Assembly (NCBI GenBank): GCA_943736015.1
Contig: OX031056.1
Coordinates: 66,739,277-66,803,276, forward strand
Direction: 5' to 3'
DNA from: Tridacna crocea
Lineage: Eukaryota > Mollusca > Bivalvia > Cardiida > Cardiidae
DNA length: 64,000 nucleotides
The stretch's first letter is position 1, and every line of letters starts with the position of its first letter. The translations under genes and the position numbers were made by a program. The notes below the pieces were generated by a model that saw nothing but the letters and a program-made list of their open reading frames with translations, ran no database searches and was not told the DNA's origin. This document shows positions 8-52,388 of this stretch, piece after piece.

Positions 8-229
8 TTAACTCATTACCACACAATCTCTACTTTTGACGCCCCTGAGAAAGAAGCCTTCAGAAAACATTGTGGGAAAAGGAGAAAATGCTGGTAACCA
101 GCATTTTCTCCTTTTCCCACAATGTTTTCTGCCCTTTACAAAACAAATATCTAGTCACTTTTATTTTAGCGTCTGCAAATGCTTTCGATGTGGACAAACA
201 TAAAATTTTGTCATTTGGTAAACAGTTAA
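8..229 (-). mobile_element. hairpin element HP-A, complete
   Basis: Type description for the family. TTAA at both ends; left end TTAACTCATTACCACACAAT, right end TTTGGTAAACAGTTAA. The body holds GAAAACATTGTGGGAAAAGG and its complement around GCTGGTAACCAGC, then TCGTCTGCAAATGCTTTC-type sequence. Full copies are 228-234 bp. TTAA targets and CCCTTT/CTCTTT ends are piggyBac-like; no coding capacity, so mobilised in trans if at all. Confidence 0.9.
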
Positions 230-12990: not shown

Positions 12991-13024
12991 GTGCAAGTAG
13001 CCCCCATTCACCAGAGCCATAAAA

Positions 13025-13150
13025 AGCATTTAATTATGCAGATGCCACAAAAATTCTGCTTCAAATGGTAAGATTTGCCAAAGAAAGAGTAGAAAACATT
13101 GTGGAAAGAGGCATTTTATTTTTTTCTTGCCATATAGATTTTTTTTCCAT
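13025..13150 (+). mobile_element. HP-A remnant
   Basis: GAGTAGAAAACATTGTGGAAAG only. Confidence 0.5.
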
Positions 13151-13154
13151 ATCT

Positions 13155-13368
13155 ATTTACCACACAATCCCCATTTTAAACAACCCTAAGAAGAAGGTTT
13201 ATGAAAACATTACGGGGAAAGGAGAAAATGCTGGTAACCAGCATTTGGTCCTTTTCTTGGAAAGTCTCCTACCTTATCAAAACAGGTGTCACTATTTGAT
13301 CTACATTCAATTTGTTGTCTGCAAATGCTTTCAGTTTGACCAAGTCCAAAATCTTGGTAAAGATTTAA
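13155..13368 (-). mobile_element. HP-A
   Basis: TTTACCACACAATCCCCATT to CTTGGTAAAGATTTAA; right arm mutated (TTTGGTCCTTTTCTTGG). Confidence 0.82.
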
Positions 13369-13593
13369 CTCTTTACCACACAAGAAAATTTTAGACTGGT
13401 CCAAATTGAAAGCATTTGCAGACAACAAAATAAAGGTGACTGAAAAATCGAAATTTGTTCTGGGAAAGATAGAAAACACTGTGGGAAAAGGAGAAAATGT
13501 TGGTTACCAGCATTTTCTCCTTTTCCCACAGTGTTTTCAAAAGGCTTCTTTCTCAGGGGCGTCAAAAGTAGGGATTGTATGGTAATGGGTTAA
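13365..13593 (+). mobile_element. HP-A, complete
   Basis: 229 bp; paired stem change CACTGTGGG/CCCACAGTG. Confidence 0.92.
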
Positions 13594-13601
13594 ATTATTG
13601 T

Positions 13602-13754
13602 TCATCCCTTACAACACAATCCTGTATTTTAACAACTCTAGGGAAATAGCCTTTTGCAAGCCTTGTGGGAGAAGGAGAGAATGTTAGTTACCAGCATTTT
13701 CTCCTTTTCCCTACAGGTTTTCTACACTTCAACTGACAAATACCATCATTTTAA
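13602..13754 (-). mobile_element. HP-A, right part missing
   Basis: CCCTTACAACACAATCCTGT start; cut at CATCATTTTAA next to the TRIM remnant. Confidence 0.75.
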
Positions 13755-13756
13755 CT

Positions 13757-13858
13757 GCTTACAAAGAAAGTCCGCAATGGAGAACCAAATTAATAAATGC
13801 ATGGCAGAAATAAGGGTCTGGACGGGATTAGAACCCCAGAACTCCCCGACAAAACACC
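13757..13858 (-). repeat. TRIM LTR remnant
   Basis: Reverse-strand match to the B-box and the 3' half of the LTR at 51261 (TCTAATCCCG, CCATGCATTTATT, CGGACTT), diverged. It lies just left of a hairpin element. Confidence 0.65.
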
Positions 13859-13864
13859 AATACC

Positions 13865-14094
13865 TTAAACCTTTACCACACAACAAAATTTTAGACAAGT
13901 CTGAATTGAAAGCATTTGCAGATGACAGTTTCAATCTGGATCATATCAAATGGTATTTCTTTGATAGGGTAGAAAACATTGTGGGAAAAGGAGAAAATGC
14001 TGGTTACCAGCATTTTCTCCTTTTCACGCAATGTTTTCAAAAGGCGTCTTTACCAGGGTCGTCAAAAGTCGTCACTGTGTGTGTAAAGGGTTCA
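13865..14094 (+). mobile_element. HP-A, complete
   Basis: TTAAACCTTTACCACACAAC to GTGTAAAGGGTTCA. Confidence 0.88.
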
Positions 14095-14104
14095 CCACTG
14101 AGCC

Positions 14105-14176
14105 AATGAGGTATCTCTTTCTGCCATGCATTTATTCATTTGTTTCTTTGTTACGGACTTTGTTCGTAAGAAACTA
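14105..14176 (+). repeat. TRIM LTR remnant with boxes deleted
   Basis: GAGGTATCTCTTT joins directly to CTGCCATGCATTTATTC and continues to TTACGGACTTTGTTCGTAAG: the LTR with its A-to-B box part missing. Opposite in orientation to the remnant at 13757, with a hairpin element between them. Confidence 0.65.
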
Positions 14177-14185
14177 AATTAAATA

Positions 14186-14251
14186 AATCATCTGCAAATG
14201 CTCTGAATATGGACCGGTCTAAAATTTTGTTGTTTGGTAGTAAAGTGTTAA
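14186..14251 (-). mobile_element. HP-A, right end only
   Basis: CATCTGCAAATGCTCTGAAT to GTAAAGTGTTAA. Confidence 0.7.
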
Positions 14252-14475
14252 CTCATTACCAAACAATCCCTACTTTTGACGCCCCTGAGAAAGAAGCCTT
14301 TAGAAAACATTGTGGGAAAAGGAGAAAATGCTGGTAACCAGCATTTCTCCTTTTCCCACAATGTTTTCTACCCTTCACTAAACAAATTTCAAATTTTCAG
14401 TCACTTTTATTTTGTCGTCTGCAAATGCTTTCGATTCGGACAAGCCTAAAATATTGTCGTTTAGTAAAGTGTTAA
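14248..14475 (-). mobile_element. HP-A, complete
   Basis: One A lost in the right arm; TTAACTCATTACCAAACAAT to TAGTAAAGTGTTAA. Confidence 0.9.
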
Positions 14476-14696
14476 AGCAGGGGGAATGGCTGGTAACATG
14501 TTACTGATTTTAAAAAGCAATTTCTCTACCTGTAAAAAAACTTTTAACATGTTGTCAAATACTTCATTATCACAAAAAAATTAATTATTTTTTGTTGTTT
14601 TTTTTTAATTTCGGTACAAGTTGTCAAAAGACACCAGCTTAAGTGCAACATGAAAATCAAGACAACATGAAAAACTTTTCACCGCAAAATCACCAG

Positions 14697-14904
14697 CTTT
14701 GACAAACTTAAAGAAAAAGCCTTTTGAAAACATTGTGCGAAAAAAGGAGAAAATGCTGGTAACCAGCATTTTCTCCCTTTTCTCACAATGTTTTCTACAA
14801 TTTCACAAAATGAATTTCAATTTTTGAGTCACACTTAATTTGTCGACTGAAAATGCCTTAAATTCAGACTAGTCCAAGATTTTGTCTGTTTTAGTACAGA
14901 GTAA
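14697..14904 (-). mobile_element. HP-A, left end lost
   Basis: Hairpin GTGCGAAAAAAGGAGAAAAT and partner intact; right end eroded to GTACAGAGTAAAG. Confidence 0.75.
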
Positions 14905-14952
14905 AGCAAACAAGTACACTCAATTCAACTGTTTATTTTGACTTTTTTCTCC

Positions 14953-15181
14953 TTAACTCTTTACCAAATGACAAAATTATAGACAGGCCCAAATTGAAAG
15001 CATTTGCAGACAGAAAAATAAATGTGACTGAAAAATCAAACTTTGTGTAAGGAAGAGTAGAAAACATGTCGGGAAATGGAGAAAATGCTGGTTACCAGCA
15101 TTTTCTCCTTTTCCCACAATGTTTTCAAAAGGTGTCTGTCCCAGGGGGTATTAAAACCAGGGATTATTTGGAGGTGTGTTA
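14953..15181 (+). mobile_element. HP-A
   Basis: TTAACTCTTTACCAAATGAC; right end mutated to GGAGGTGTGTTA. Confidence 0.85.
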
Positions 15182-26200: not shown

Positions 26201-29200
26201 GCTGAAAAATTCACAAAAATCTGATCACAAATAAATACTTTATCATGTAAACAATAAATGGAAATCTTAAACTTGAAATGGCTACTTTTCCCATACTGTT
26301 TGTCGGATTTTCTTTCAAAATCAATAGGGTTAAAGCTATTGAATGGATAAACAAACTGTAAGTTTCACGAAAATCTGACCACAAATGAAGACTTTATCAC
26401 GTAAAAAACAAATGAACTTTTTCTACTTGAAATGGCTGCTTTTCCCATGAATCAATAGGGTTGAAGCTATTGATAAGATAAACAAACTCTGCAAGTTTCA
26501 TGGAAATCTGACCGAAAATACAGACTTTATCGCATAAACAAGAAATGGAAATTCTAAAATTGAAATGACTACTTTTCCCATACTGTTTGTAAGATTTTTT
26601 TCAAAATCGACAGGGTTAAAGCTATTGATGAGATAAACAAACTGTGCAAGTTTCACGAAAATCTGACCACAAATGAAGACTTTATCACATAAACAAGAAA
26701 AAGACTAACGGACGGACAGATAGACGGACGGACGACGGAAAGCACGCCATGTCATAAGCTCTGCTGGCTTTCAGCCAATTGAGCTAAAAAACAGAGTTGG
26801 GCACAATACAAACAAACATCTATAAATCAGTTGGCAGACTTTTTAAATTTCACTGGAAAAAAAAGTTGCCTTTTACTAACAGAAGCTTTCTACCCCCACA
26901 TTCTTTTTTAACTCTACAAACAACAAAATTTGGGGACTAGTCCAAACTGAAAGCATTTGCAGATGACAAAACAGATGTGACTCAAAAATTGAAATCCGAT
27001 ATGGAAAGGGTAGAAAACACAGTGGGAAAAAGGAGAAAATGCTGGTTATCAGTATTTTCTATTTTTTCCACAATATTTTTAAAAGCTTTCTATCTCAGGG
27101 TCGTTAAAAGTCAGGATTATGTGGTAAGGAGTTAAACCAGTAAGAAATTATGGTTTTCCTTCCAGCGAAGCAATTGTTGGCACTAACTATCAATGAATTC
27201 TTTAGCAAATTAAATGGACACTTTGCAACCAAAGGTTTTCTGAACTAAAGCCATTTAAAAACATTTATGCAGATTAAACAAAGATCAGACCGTATAGATG
27301 TATAGAATGTGCACAGAATGTGCAGCCTGATCATGGTATGCACTGTCTGCAAAAGCAGCACATGCTCACTTGCAACAGGATTTGACCCTGCATTTGAAAA
27401 AAAGAAGTTTAGAATCGTTTCCATGTTCAATACAAGGGAAGATGGCATTTGAGAAAAACAACCAGTTTCAGATCAAAATAAATATTTTTGAGTAATATTC
27501 AAGATATGAGACAATTTCAAGGTTTTTTACATAAATACATATGTGTAGTTAAATACCCAAAACACACAGAATGCACCATACATTAACCTTAACTTAAGGT
27601 GGTAGACCCCTAATACCTCTAGTGCTGCATTGCATAAAGTTTTCTTGATTGTTGATAAATACGGATTTATACAGTTATAATACTTTTACGCATTTTTAAC
27701 AGACCAGAAACTTCTTTATGCCTATCTTGAAATTATTTGTAGATACTTTTGTTAGTTTCCAGAAAAGAGAGGTAATTAGTATCTGTCTTTGTAATGAAAA
27801 TATAGTGGTTTTAGACTTATAAATGATAATTCTAGAAAAGACAAAAAGGGAAAAGTGGCTTGGTTAAAGCAGTACAGTAACACTCTTTTTTAATCATAGC
27901 AAATTTTGTAGGATAATATCATTGTGGAAAGAGCTGTATTCCATTAGGGATCTACTACGTTAAAATACAGCCAAGCTTTCAACTCTTTACCACACAATCC
28001 TGACTTTTAACGATCCCCGAGTAAGATAGCTTTTGAAAACATGGAAAAAAGGAGAAAATGCTTGTAACTAGCATTTTCTCCTTTTTCCACGATGTTTTCT
28101 ATTCTTCTAAAGTCAATTTTCAATTTTTTAGTGACAGTTACTTTGTCGCTTGCAAACGCTTTCAATTGGGACAAGTCTACAATTTTGTCGTCAGGTAAAG
28201 AGTTAACCCTTTACCCCCTAAGGCATTTCTATGGTATCTCTAATCGACCCTAAATAATAGCAAGGATGAAGCCATTTCTTATGTGCATATGACATCTTTT
28301 GGTAGCAAAGAAAAAATTGTGACAAAAGGTGAAATTGCTCGTCACAAGCAATTTCACCTTTTGCCACCATGTTTTCAAAAGGCTCCTACAAGCAATGCGT
28401 AGAAATGAGTATCTATGGAGTAAAGGGTTAAATTCAGGTGATTTAGCACACAGATGGTGCAAGTGAATTACCTAAATAATTTGCCAAAGAAATAAAGCAT
28501 TTCCCTGTGATGTAAGCATCAAAACCTGCTTCATGCAATAACTCATTGTCCTTGTACCTGTTGTCCATTTCTTCTGCTAGCTCTACAAATAAATTAGGCA
28601 ACATGTAAATTATTTTCTTTACCAGATAATAATATTTTTTCACATAAAAACCCCTCCGGCAGTGTATTAACCCATTAGCACTCAATGACACCTTTAACGC
28701 CCCTGGAGAAGAAGCCTTTTGAAAACATTGTGGGAAAAGGAGAAAATGCTGGTAACCAGCATTTTCTCCTATTCCCACAAAGTTTTCTACCTTATCAAAG
28801 CCGAATTACGCCATTTGAGGCACTCTGAAATTGTCGTCTGCGAATTTTGCTGTGTGGGTTAATTAACCCATTACCACACAATCCCTACTTTTGACACCCC
28901 TGAGAAAGAAGCCTTAATAAAACATTGTGGGAAAAAGACAAGATGCTGGTAAACAGCATTTTCTCCTTTTCCCACAAAGTTTTTTACCCTTCACAAAAAA
29001 AAAAAAAATTCAAATTTTCAATCACTTTTATTTTGTTGCCTGCAAATGCTTTCAATTTGGACCAGCCTAAAATATTGTCATTTGGTAATGAGTTAATCCC
29101 ATGACTTACTTTCAATAATACACTACACTAGTGTATTATCGTGCTTTGGGTCCTGGTTCTGATCAATTTTCAGTCACGAGCGCGTGAAGCCAGACAAACC

Positions 29201-41200: not shown

Positions 41201-44200
41201 TTTCTCATTGCCTTTTAATAAGCTGTCAGTAATTGTAATATTTCAAAATGCTCAAATTTGAAGCTAAACAATAAAAGGTATATTATGATCCCGGGTCTTG
41301 TACTTCTTACCACATAGAAAAATTTTGGCATCTAACTTAACATTAGGTTTTGCACAATACCAAATTTTTGTGCCACTCGATCAGCTTTAAGTAAAAACCA
41401 CCAGAAAAATAAACAATTCAATGTTTTTCTTTATATAAGTGTCCTGTATTGTTTTCTTTCAAAAACTGGGATAAGACCAACGGCAATGAAAACAGTCAAA
41501 AGTATGGGGGATTAAACTTACTTGTGTTCAAGCATCTGATAGGTCAACTTTCTCTGAAATGCTGTTGAAGGTGGAAGAGCCATTTCTTCTTCTTCCCCAG
41601 ATTCAATAAACTTTTCAACTCTTTGACTGTAGTAATAAGAGCATTACTGTAAGTTGCAGTATTCATCAACTATCTTTCTATATTAACTCTTTACTCCATA
41701 GATATTCATTTCTACCCATTGCTTGTAGGAGCCTTTGGAAAACATTGTGGCAAAAGGTGAAATTGCTCGTGACGAGCAATTTCACCTCTTGTCACAATGT
41801 TTTCTATGCTACCGAAAGGTGTCATATACACATAAGAAACAGCTTCTTCCTTGCCATTATTTAGGGTCAATTAGAGAAACCATGGAAATGCCTCATGGGG
41901 TAAAGGATTAACTCATACCACACAATTCATAGTTTTGATAAACCTCAGGAGAAATACTTTTGAAAATATACTGTGATGCTGCGAAATATTAGCATGTTAG
42001 ACAATCAGGTATATTCTAGGAAAGGTTTTGTCCTGTATCTTGCATAGGCCCTCGTCACAAAAACCGACAGTCATTTGGAGGCACTGCCTCTTTTAGCATC
42101 AAGTAAATAAATCAAACAAAGTCCACCTCTAGTGGTATGGAAATTTATTTTGACCTCTAAATCTTTCCTAACAATCCTGTACAGAGGCACTAGAACGCTC
42201 ATTTAAAGCTCTACTTCTATCTTTAACTATTTCAGCACCAGATATAACACTTGACAGCATTCCAGTGCTGAGGCTTAAAACAAAATAAAAGTGACTGAAA
42301 TTTAAAATTTGTTTTGTGACAGGTAGAAAACATTGTGGGAAAAGAAGAAAATGCTGGTTACCAGCATTTTATCCTTTTCCCACAATGTTTTCAAAAGGCT
42401 ATTTTTCCAGGAGCGTCAAAAGTAGGGATTGTGTGGTAAATGGTTAACTCATGATTAAACGACAATATTTTGGGCTTGTCCAAATCGAAAGCATTTGCAG
42501 ACAACAAAATAATAGTGACTGAAAATTTGAAATTTGTTTTTGTGAAGGGTAGGAAACATTGTGGAAAAAGGAGAAAATGCTGGTTGCCAGCATTCTCTCC
42601 TTTTCCCACAATGTTTTCAATAGGTTTCTTTTCTCAAGGTCATCAAAAGTAGGGATTGTGTGGTAAAGGGTCAAGCCAAATTCAATCTTATGCCAGGAAA
42701 CAATTTCAAAATACAATCTGAGTAAGTATTAGTTTGTCACCTGTAGTGAATTGAAGAAATTATTGGCAACAGATGACAGGCATTAGACGATGCATAATCA
42801 CAAAAATTCATAATGAGCATTGTCTGCGCATGTCATATTCTTCGAAGATTCAATCTGTCTTACATGACGCATCACTAGCTTCGAAAACGGGCAGACTGTA
42901 ATATTACGCCCTAAAAAGTAGCAATGTAGAAAATAGCTTTTATCAATACGTCTGAGGAGAAATGAGACATGGGTTAGCTCCAGATTTCTCTTACCTGCTG
43001 ATCATAGCTGAGTGAATTGCATGAGGTAGCGTTTTACTGAGTAAACGTTTATTTTAGTTTGAAATTCAAAGTAACGGTTGTCGCGTAGGAAAGTTGTTCG
43101 GTTCTGTACCCAGGATGTCCAAATTAGATAGATGAGTATTTATAGAATGCCATCTAGCAGGAGATAATGTCATAATGAGTACTCTATGCTCAGCTAAGCT
43201 AAAACCTTACCAAATATGGTCAATAAACTCTTTATGCTCTGACGGAATATTAACTGGTCCTTTCACAACACCAGGGTGTGATCCACCTGAAGGCATAAAC
43301 TTGGGTGACGTAAACATTTCTCTTTTCTTTTGTACCGCTTCCTTGAGGTTAGCTTCAATGGATGGCTGAAGGTAGGATATTCCTTCCTTTATCCACTTAT
43401 TAAAGTCGAACCCTTGTGAGATCAGGAAGTCAAGACTTGAACTCTGTAACATAGAAATAAATTGATCATTTACCACACAATCCGAGCTTTTAATGACCCT
43501 AAGAAAATGGCCTTTTGAAAACATTGTGGAAATAGGCAAAAATGATGGTAACAAGCAATTTCTCCTTTTTTTCTACCCTTTATAAAGCAAATTTTTAGTA
43601 TTCAGCAAGTAATTGTGACTGATAATAAGAAATTTGGTTAGGGAAGGGTAGAAAACATTGTGGTAAAAGGAGAAAATGCTGGTTAACAGCATTTTCTCCT
43701 TTTCCCACAATGTTTTCAAAAGGCTCCTTTCTCAGGGCCATTGAAAGTCGGGATTGTGTGGTAATGGGTTAAACTACCTCAGCAATGTTTCATAAATTAC
43801 TTCTAAATATCTAACTCTTTTATAAAACAAAAAAAAAAAAATGGACAAGACCAAATTGAAAGAATTTGCACACATAAATCATATGCCACTTAACTGATGA
43901 ATTTTGTCTTTAATAGGATGCAAAACATAATTAGAAAAGGTGAAAATGCTGGTAAGGAGCACTTTTTCCTTTTTTCACAATGTTTTCAACAGCCTTCTCT
44001 ATCACAGACGTTAGAACTCAAAATTGTAAGGTAAATAGTTATTTCAACAAAAAATTATGACTTGTTCATATTAAAAGAAATTGTAGATGACAAATTAATG
44101 AGCCAAAAATGATGGAATTCGTCTTGAAAAGTGAGAAAAATTTGTAGGTTAAGACAAAAATGCTGGCTAACACCAAATAATTATGAAAAATAGAGGATAT

Positions 44201-50933: not shown

Positions 50934-51035
50934 CGGCGATTCATCGGACCGGAGCCAAGGATTGAACCATAAAGCCCTTGTCCTCAAGTCCTTTACACTA
51001 CTGGCTGAGCTACCCGTGCACTGCACAGCACTGTA
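50934..51035 (-). mobile_element. tRNA-like SINE head
   Basis: Minus strand: GGGTAGCTCAGCCAGTAGTG (A-box) and ATGGTTCAATCCTTGGC (B-box). No clear body or tail. Confidence 0.5.
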
Positions 51036-51260
51036 CTTAGATAGCAGTGTGCCACAAAAAAGGAACAAGGGAAAACTTAAGTGAACGGCAGGGTTTTCCA
51101 TGACGCACAAATCCTGCGTCATTGACGCAATTTTAATTCAAATGACCCCCAAAATAAATGACAGTGCGTCATCGGTGACGCAACTTTCCAAAATCTAAAT
51201 AATGTACGAATTTGAATGAAGCGTCATAATTCCAAGTGTGTTCTTGCTCCAATGTCAGAC

Positions 51261-51466
51261 TGTTACGACAGACCACTCCTTCCTGCATGGTATACTCCCG
51301 ATTTAAATACAATACCTGGCTACTGCGTCAGGGAGATATCTCTTTGGCTCAGTGGTTAGGTTATTGCCTTTGCGTCCGGGAGTTCGGAGTTCGAATCCCG
51401 CTCCGATCCTTATTTCTTCCATGCAATTATTCATTTGTTTCTTTGTTACGGACTTCGTTCGTAAGA
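51261..51466 (+). repeat. 5' LTR of the TRIM, with A- and B-box
   Basis: Contains TGGCTCAGTGGTTAGG at 51345 (tRNA A-box form) and GTTCGAATCC at 51389 (B-box form), 44 bases apart as in a tRNA. The acceptor and T stems do not pair well, so it is a tRNA-derived Pol III promoter rather than a tRNA gene. Confidence 0.8.
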
Positions 51467-51484
51467 TGGGGGCTCGTCCGGGAT
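51467..51484 (+). promoter_or_regulatory. primer-binding site, tRNA-Pro type
   Basis: TGGGGGCTCGTCCGGGAT sits directly after the 5' LTR and is complementary to the 3' end of tRNA-Pro. Confidence 0.85.
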
Positions 51485-51582
51485 TGGCCATTGAGCCATT
51501 AATCCCATTTGTTGTCCAAAATCGGACTTCCTGCCTAATAAGGCTTTGAGTCATCAATAAATGATGACTTTAAGAGGGGGTG

Positions 51583-51788
51583 TGTTACGACAGACCACTC
51601 CTTCCTGCATGGTATACTCCCGATTTAAATACAATACCTGGCTACTGCGTCAGGGAGATATCTCTTTGGCTCAGTGGTTAGGTTATTGGCTTTGCGTCCG
51701 GGAGTTCAGAGTTCGAATCCCGCTCCGATCCTTATTTCTTCCATGCAATTATTCATTTGTTTCTTTGTTACGGACTTCGTTCGTAAGA
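51583..51788 (+). repeat. 3' LTR of the TRIM
   Basis: Same length as the 5' LTR and aligned base for base; differences at the GCC/GGC and CGGAG/CAGAG positions. The same A/B-box pair lies at 51667 and 51711. Confidence 0.85.
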
Positions 51789-52388
51789 CAGACAAACACC
51801 GTTCTTTTTTTAACTACAGGGTTTACTTTAGATAAAAGTGGTTTTCCGGTAATCTATTTATAGAATAAGACTGGTTTACGCATTATTGCCGAAATGTATA
51901 TTGGACACGTGTCGTAAATATGGGCCCAGTCAAAGTCGTGGTTGGGTTCTCTGTATTTCATAGCATATTTTACACAACTTCCGGTATATAAAAGTACGCA
52001 TTACCAGTCTGTGCTGTTAGTGGAAAAATAATGTCATGACGAAGAAAACTGTAGCATTCTTCTATCGTCTGCTTCCTACAACTGCCGATCAAGCCACGTC
52101 AAGCAGCGATTCAGACGAAAATGTTTGGTCTGTCAAAAAGTGACATCGGCGTTTCCGTCAGAAATGATCGACCGACTTTTCAATTTTGGAAGTAGACGTT
52201 TAAAAGGTAAAATGCATTATAAATCGTGTTTGAAGTTGATGACGAGGAAATTCATATTTTTGACCCCCAAAATTAATGAAATGACCCGCAACCAATGAGG
52301 AAGGGGGTCACAATGACCCCCAATTTTCAAAGCCGAGGGAAAACCCTGAACAGCTTCGGGCTTGATGACCCAAGTATGACCAGATTGT

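Follow-up and report, generated by a model that had tools for sequence, protein, structure and literature searches.

TRIM retrotransposons with tRNA-like LTRs were described under the name Helenus (Kojima 2024) in fungi, in a plant, and in six animal phyla, and they were grouped with Cassandra and Ajax as "TRIMp3" (PMC10886601). Helenus elements are recognized by a box A (TRGCY, YGG) and a box B (GGTTC) in the LTR; the bivalve families use tRNA-Pro, and one bivalve Gypsy element has a tRNA-Pro site as well (PMC10886601). The use of Pol III by Helenus is without experimental proof, and how the dependence of TRIMs on an autonomous element persists is not known (PMC10886601). A 2026 meeting report repeats the description of Helenus (PMC12859917). 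In Cassandra, the LTR contains a 5S rRNA promoter together with a terminator (PMC10886601).

We analyzed a 64,000-nucleotide stretch of the Tridacna crocea genome (the window), in which an earlier note had described a TRIM with paired LTRs, a tRNA-Pro primer binding site (PBS), a polypurine tract (PPT), and a pair of A and B boxes in each LTR. All of these features were recovered at exact coordinates (Table 1). The element has 528 bp and is composed of two 206-bp LTRs, which differ only at LTR positions 107 and 126, and of a 116-bp interior without coding capacity. The interior starts with TGGGGGCTCGTCCGGGAT immediately 3' of the 5' LTR and ends with AAGAGGGGGTG; its first 18 bases are complementary to the 3' end of a tRNA that we take to be tRNA-Pro.

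Table 1. Positions, in window coordinates, of the TRIM, its flanks, and an LTR remnant
Feature	Position	Strand	Remark
Old head-to-head LTR remnant	13758..14171		inverted LTR 205..73 with 225-bp insertion, then forward LTR 153..206
TSD CAGAC, left copy, 5 bp	51256..51260		family rule, 4 bp
5' LTR, 206 bp, TGTTACG...CGTAAGA	51261..51466	+	ends same or nearly same in genome copies
TATA-like TTTAAATA, 5' LTR	51302..51309	+	
A box TGGCTCAGTGG, 5' LTR	51345..51355	+	kept in both LTRs, 64/64 pairs
B box AGTTCGAATCC, 5' LTR	51388..51398	+	core GTTCGAATC in both LTRs, 61/64 pairs
Interior, 116 bp	51467..51582	+	
PBS, complement of tRNA-Pro 3' end	51467..51484	+	exact in 62/64 pairs
Polypurine tract AAGAGGGGGTG	51572..51582	+	
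3' LTR, 206 bp	51583..51788	+	2 mismatches vs 5' LTR
TATA-like TTTAAATA, 3' LTR	51624..51631	+	
A box, 3' LTR	51667..51677	+	
B box, 3' LTR	51710..51720	+	
TSD CAGAC, right copy	51789..51793		
TTTTTTT, first T run of at least 4 after element start, 3' flank	51805..51811	+	possible Pol III stop, inferred

We then looked into the distribution of the element in the 1.05-Gb genome. The exact PBS occurred 2,790 times (reversed-pattern control, 0) and the exact junction between LTR end, PBS, and interior 1,656 times (control, 0), so that a search for the LTR beside the PBS did reveal a large TRIM family, as the earlier note had anticipated. Matches to the whole 528 bp at 98 to 100% numbered at least 43 (best 40 of 752 candidates scored), a count that includes a few overlapping readings of two tandem arrays. 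A second subfamily, whose LTR is ∼93% similar to that of the window copy, gave at least 42 matches, of which 41 spanned all or almost all of the element (best 40 of 2,756 candidates scored). Removal of repeated flanks reduced 71 loci (L003 to L073) to 64 LTR pairs, three tandem arrays, and one solo LTR; the script that paired the LTRs dropped repeats lying 8 or fewer bases from the end of a locus as well as places whose 30-base flanks had already been seen, and L009, L031, L047, L049, and L056 are without a row in the resulting table. Since their flanks are near-identical, L052, L055, L062, and L066 are probably one insertion that was copied together with its surroundings. Five tandem arrays, with a spacing of 320 to 337, also appeared among the first 100 PBS listed. 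A genome search with the interior only returned 0 matches, and as this search skips very common words, it says nothing on rarity. Viral contigs scanned with three LTR/PBS patterns contained no relatives; two loci on such contigs were rejected because the match spanned only 20 to 22 bases and the remainder was unrelated.

The two LTRs were identical in 23 of the 53 pairs with a length of 528 bp (the other 11 pairs, of different length, were excluded from the comparison). The family has therefore been recently active, as had been supposed from the window copy, although with 2/206 LTR differences this copy is itself not among the youngest. The solo LTR, at L048:2373-2579, is old and has 73% identity to the window LTR, which makes it probable that the lineage has harbored the family or its relatives for a long time.

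The target-site duplication (TSD) measured exactly 4 bp in 59 of the 64 LTR pairs, in agreement with the rule for animal Helenus (PMC10886601). The LTR-interior-LTR tandem arrays were each surrounded by a single duplication, also of 4 bp (3/3). The window copy was alone among the 64 pairs in having 5 bp, and the four remaining pairs had duplications of 3, 2, 0, and 0 bp. The 5-bp CAGAC duplication reported earlier thus holds for the window copy and does not characterize the family. The usual 4 bp may be represented here by AGAC, with the fifth base being an additional one at the end of the LTR.

An autonomous partner sharing both PBS and LTR ends with the TRIM had also been suggested, and we searched for it among the 210 PBS of the genome that are not followed by T. 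Twenty of 100 such sites listed were fetched, all with A or G as the next base: 15 were TRIM interiors (some of them diverged), two had the TRIM LTR end and PBS followed by unrelated sequence, one combined the TRIM LTR end with another interior, and two had an LTR end of the form CTCGTAACA-GAAAT. L089 and L093, where the TRIM LTR end and PBS run into unrelated sequence, are either truncated copies or further hybrids. The CTCGTAACA-GAAAT-PBS junction occurred 678 times in the genome (control, 0). From four of these places we took 3.5 kb each, starting ∼2 kb further in, and all four contained a frame of 609 to 975 codons with a YIDD motif. The pieces from L099 and L100 encode an integrase followed by a reverse transcriptase (RT), and L099, the only one for which the next piece was scanned, also encodes an RNase H. 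The candidate partner, as judged from its sequence, is hence a Gypsy element with the integrase before the RT and a PBS identical to that of the TRIM. The candidate shares the PBS with the TRIM and not the LTR end: the Gypsy LTR ends in CTCGTAACA and is separated from the PBS by the 5-bp spacer GAAAT.

A further locus, L094 (on C2), combines sequences of both elements. It has 258-bp terminal repeats that differ at 4/258 positions, with ACTA on both outer sides, and the tRNA-Pro PBS directly after the left repeat. Each repeat is a near-palindrome of head-to-head TRIM LTR sequence (93.8% self-complementary). Searched piecewise, the frame of L094 yielded a SCAN-type gag domain, an integrase, and a weak zinc knuckle under Pfam's cut-off, and no RT; a PDB search with one of the pieces gave no match. 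TRIM sequence starts close to where the integrase ends and ahead of the RT. The last 1.27 to 1.32 kb before the right repeat are 97.6 to 98.3% identical to the four Gypsy places, the match beginning where the fetched Gypsy stretches begin. We take an integrase upstream of the RT, as seen in L099 and L100, to be the arrangement of Gmr1-like Gypsy elements, to which a SCAN-type gag is presumably linked too. In the candidate partner, RT and RNase H follow the integrase, and L094, which shares the partner's sequence, has such a gag. L095 (C2:71685200-71689800) contains a short element that has an LTR of its own (TGTTATG..., ending in CTCGTAACA), a tRNA-Pro site, and the PPT AAGGGGGGAAG; it has 337 bp in common with the start of the L094 gag (96%) and is probably a Gypsy copy with an internal deletion.

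The composition of L094 suggests that reverse transcription switched templates between a Gypsy RNA and TRIM sequence and that the product then underwent integrase-type insertion. We considered that it might instead be a nested insertion or have arisen when an old Gypsy copy later recombined with neighboring TRIM copies. The genome contains the left junction once, no clear purine tract precedes the 3' repeat, and a head-to-head LTR remnant stands alone in the window, all of which would fit such an origin. However, the near-identical 258-bp ends, ACTA outside both of them, and the PBS directly after the left one make up the layout of a single integration event, and we regard a nested or recombined origin as unlikely. 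Taken as a product of template switching, L094 is unusually direct evidence for which larger element the TRIM depends on. The remnant in the window has a plan similar to that of the palindromic LTR of L094 and is older.

We next analyzed the putative promoter. The A box TGGCTCAGTGG starts at LTR position 85 and the B box GTTCGAATC at position 129 in both LTRs, 44 bases apart. Three A/B pairs were found on the two strands of the window, two of them being those of the TRIM LTRs, against 0.35 expected from 60 mononucleotide shuffles. Both LTRs had an intact A box in 64/64 pairs and an intact B box in 61/64, so that the boxes are kept among copies, as the earlier note had expected; in the tandem array L057, the exact A box was missing from all three LTRs. 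Conservation of the boxes carries little weight because the copies are too young: 1 of 22 box columns was variable versus 32 of 184 other LTR columns (P = 0.21), so that the boxes do not significantly exceed the rest of the LTR in conservation. The B box of the window copy reads AGTTC, and that of L009, a copy of the second subfamily, reads GGTTC. ARAGORN scored no tRNA in the LTR or the element, the Rfam covariance models did not score the LTR as a tRNA, and no Rfam family matched positions 51250 to 51800 up to an E value of 10; the promoter boxes have thus been retained without a recognizable tRNA fold.

More informative than the conservation of the boxes is the lack of T runs: the element is 34% T, yet its sense strand contains no TTTT. 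This absence had a P value of 0.0074 in dinucleotide shuffles of the nonredundant LTR plus interior, a value to be read with the facts that the absence was noticed post hoc, that the copies share ancestry, and that only T4 terminators were considered. For comparison, when the window was divided into 1,274 overlapping tiles of 322 bases, 2.5% of these were free of TTTT, and a TTTT was present in 2 of the 67 pairs and arrays. The first T run beyond the 3' LTR lies at 17 bases in the window copy and at 2 to 339 bases across 28 copies. A Pol III transcript begun in the 5' LTR could therefore run through the entire element and terminate in the flanking DNA. We infer transcription of the TRIM by Pol III from these sequence features, which places it on the same footing as in the Helenus paper.

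The element could also be an ordinary TRIM transcribed by Pol II, in which an old SINE that inserted into the LTR has left the tRNA-like boxes behind as a passive relic. Each LTR has a TATA-like TTTAAATA, starting 43 bases ahead of the A box, that is compatible with Pol II, and a relic would agree with the missing tRNA fold and with box columns whose conservation does not significantly exceed that of the other LTR columns. Against it stand the presence of the boxes in both LTRs of nearly all pairs and the lack of a T4 run within the element. In addition, the LTR has no AATAAA or ATTAAA; the sole such signal lies in the interior, upstream of the 3' LTR, and would terminate the RNA before the 3' repeat. 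On balance, we find a Pol II element with relic boxes quite improbable. That the locus is a SINE-like element or a duplicated tRNA gene rather than an LTR element, as its short length and tRNA-type boxes might suggest, can practically be dismissed in view of the paired LTRs, the PBS, the purine tract, the near-constant ends with 4-bp TSDs in 59/64 pairs, and the tandem LTR-interior-LTR arrays with one 4-bp duplication each (3/3), as SINEs have longer, variable duplications and 3' tails.

We propose, with a probability of roughly 80%, that the window element is a nonautonomous Helenus-type LTR retrotransposon that is transcribed by Pol III and packaged by Gypsy, and that the hybrid copy arose by template switching. 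TFIIIC and Pol III would start just upstream of the A box of the 5' LTR, at about LTR position 70 to 75, and Pol III would read the entire element, which has no T4 stop inside, and terminate where the flank has its first T run. The resulting RNA would have the LTR half that contains the A box at either end. It would be packaged by the Gypsy element with the same tRNA-Pro PBS and reverse transcribed in the Gypsy particle. That the TRIM inserts with 4-bp duplications as a family rule is seen in the sequence, as is the hybrid structure of L094, which would stem from a template switch between Gypsy and TRIM RNAs inside one particle. A more specific proposal, namely, that a Pol III TRIM is parasitic on this identifiable Gypsy element, that L094 records their co-reverse transcription, and that the absence of T4 was selected for read-through, has in our estimation an even chance of being correct. 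It makes the simple prediction that Pol III-driven TRIMs should be without internal T runs.

Several other features of the window were recorded. A tRNA-like stretch on the minus strand (50935 to 51020), ∼240 bases from the TRIM, contains a B box GGTTCAATCC along with an A box that is weaker; it may be a SINE or some other element derived from a tRNA, and a search of this stretch in Rfam gave no match. Dense palindromic repeats around GGAGAAAATGCTGGTAACCAGCATTTTCTCC occupy positions 13000 to 15000 and recur elsewhere in the window. The translation of a piece of a similar palindromic repeat matched 1,662 public predicted proteins (E ≤ 0.001), so repeats of this type are widespread. On the minus strand, positions 43207 to 43572 are likely an exon of PARN [poly(A)-specific ribonuclease], with matches in Pfam and the PDB, and positions 28443 to 28805 likely another, with a Pfam match slightly under the cut-off.

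Finally, we compared the element with the described systems. The plant Cassandra elements are likewise TRIMs whose LTRs hold a Pol III promoter, which is a putative one in the window element, and tandem arrays are reported for Cassandra as well (PMC7215508). It differs from Cassandra in having tRNA-type boxes and no T4 terminator, and the Rfam search of positions 51250 to 51800 (E up to 10) detected no 5S rRNA-derived sequence. biv-TRIM (Satovic 2019, PMC6934838) is a bivalve TRIM that is similar in its repeats of 202 to 218 bp and its tandem arrays and different in its inner domain of 77 to 80 bp, its PPT (GGGGAGA in most), and the lack of an unambiguous PBS. The window element has a 116-bp interior, the PPT AAGAGGGGGTG, and an exact tRNA-Pro PBS, and its interior contains neither TGATCCCAAAGGAC nor GGGGAGA, the motifs of biv-TRIM.

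The closest resemblance is to Helenus. Shared traits are the TRIM structure, A and B boxes in both LTRs (TGGCT...TGG in both LTRs of the window copy), the PBS beside the 5' LTR and the PPT before the 3' LTR, the absence of coding capacity, the use of tRNA-Pro as in bivalve families, a length within 311 to 1263 bp, and tandem arrays, known from a zebrafish family. The 4-bp TSD of animal Helenus is found in the family, and the window copy departs from it with 5 bp. The window element fits the Helenus class, and the earlier proposal of a new animal counterpart of Cassandra does not hold as regards novelty, since this class was already named in 2024 (PMC10886601). The literature that we covered, with Repbase and supplements outside its scope, yielded no assignment of a partner by a hybrid copy and no analysis of T runs for Helenus; the word "terminator" appears once in PMC10886601, about Cassandra. 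The second difference from Helenus concerns the partner: animal Helenus was tied to Gypsy by similarity of the PBS region (PMC10886601), and the candidate partner of the TRIM is tied to it here by a hybrid copy. If true, this would be the first recombinant-copy assignment of a partner for an animal TRIMp3, as far as the literature found goes, and the occurrence of a young high-copy family, a candidate Gypsy element, and a hybrid in one genome makes the dependence of TRIMs testable.
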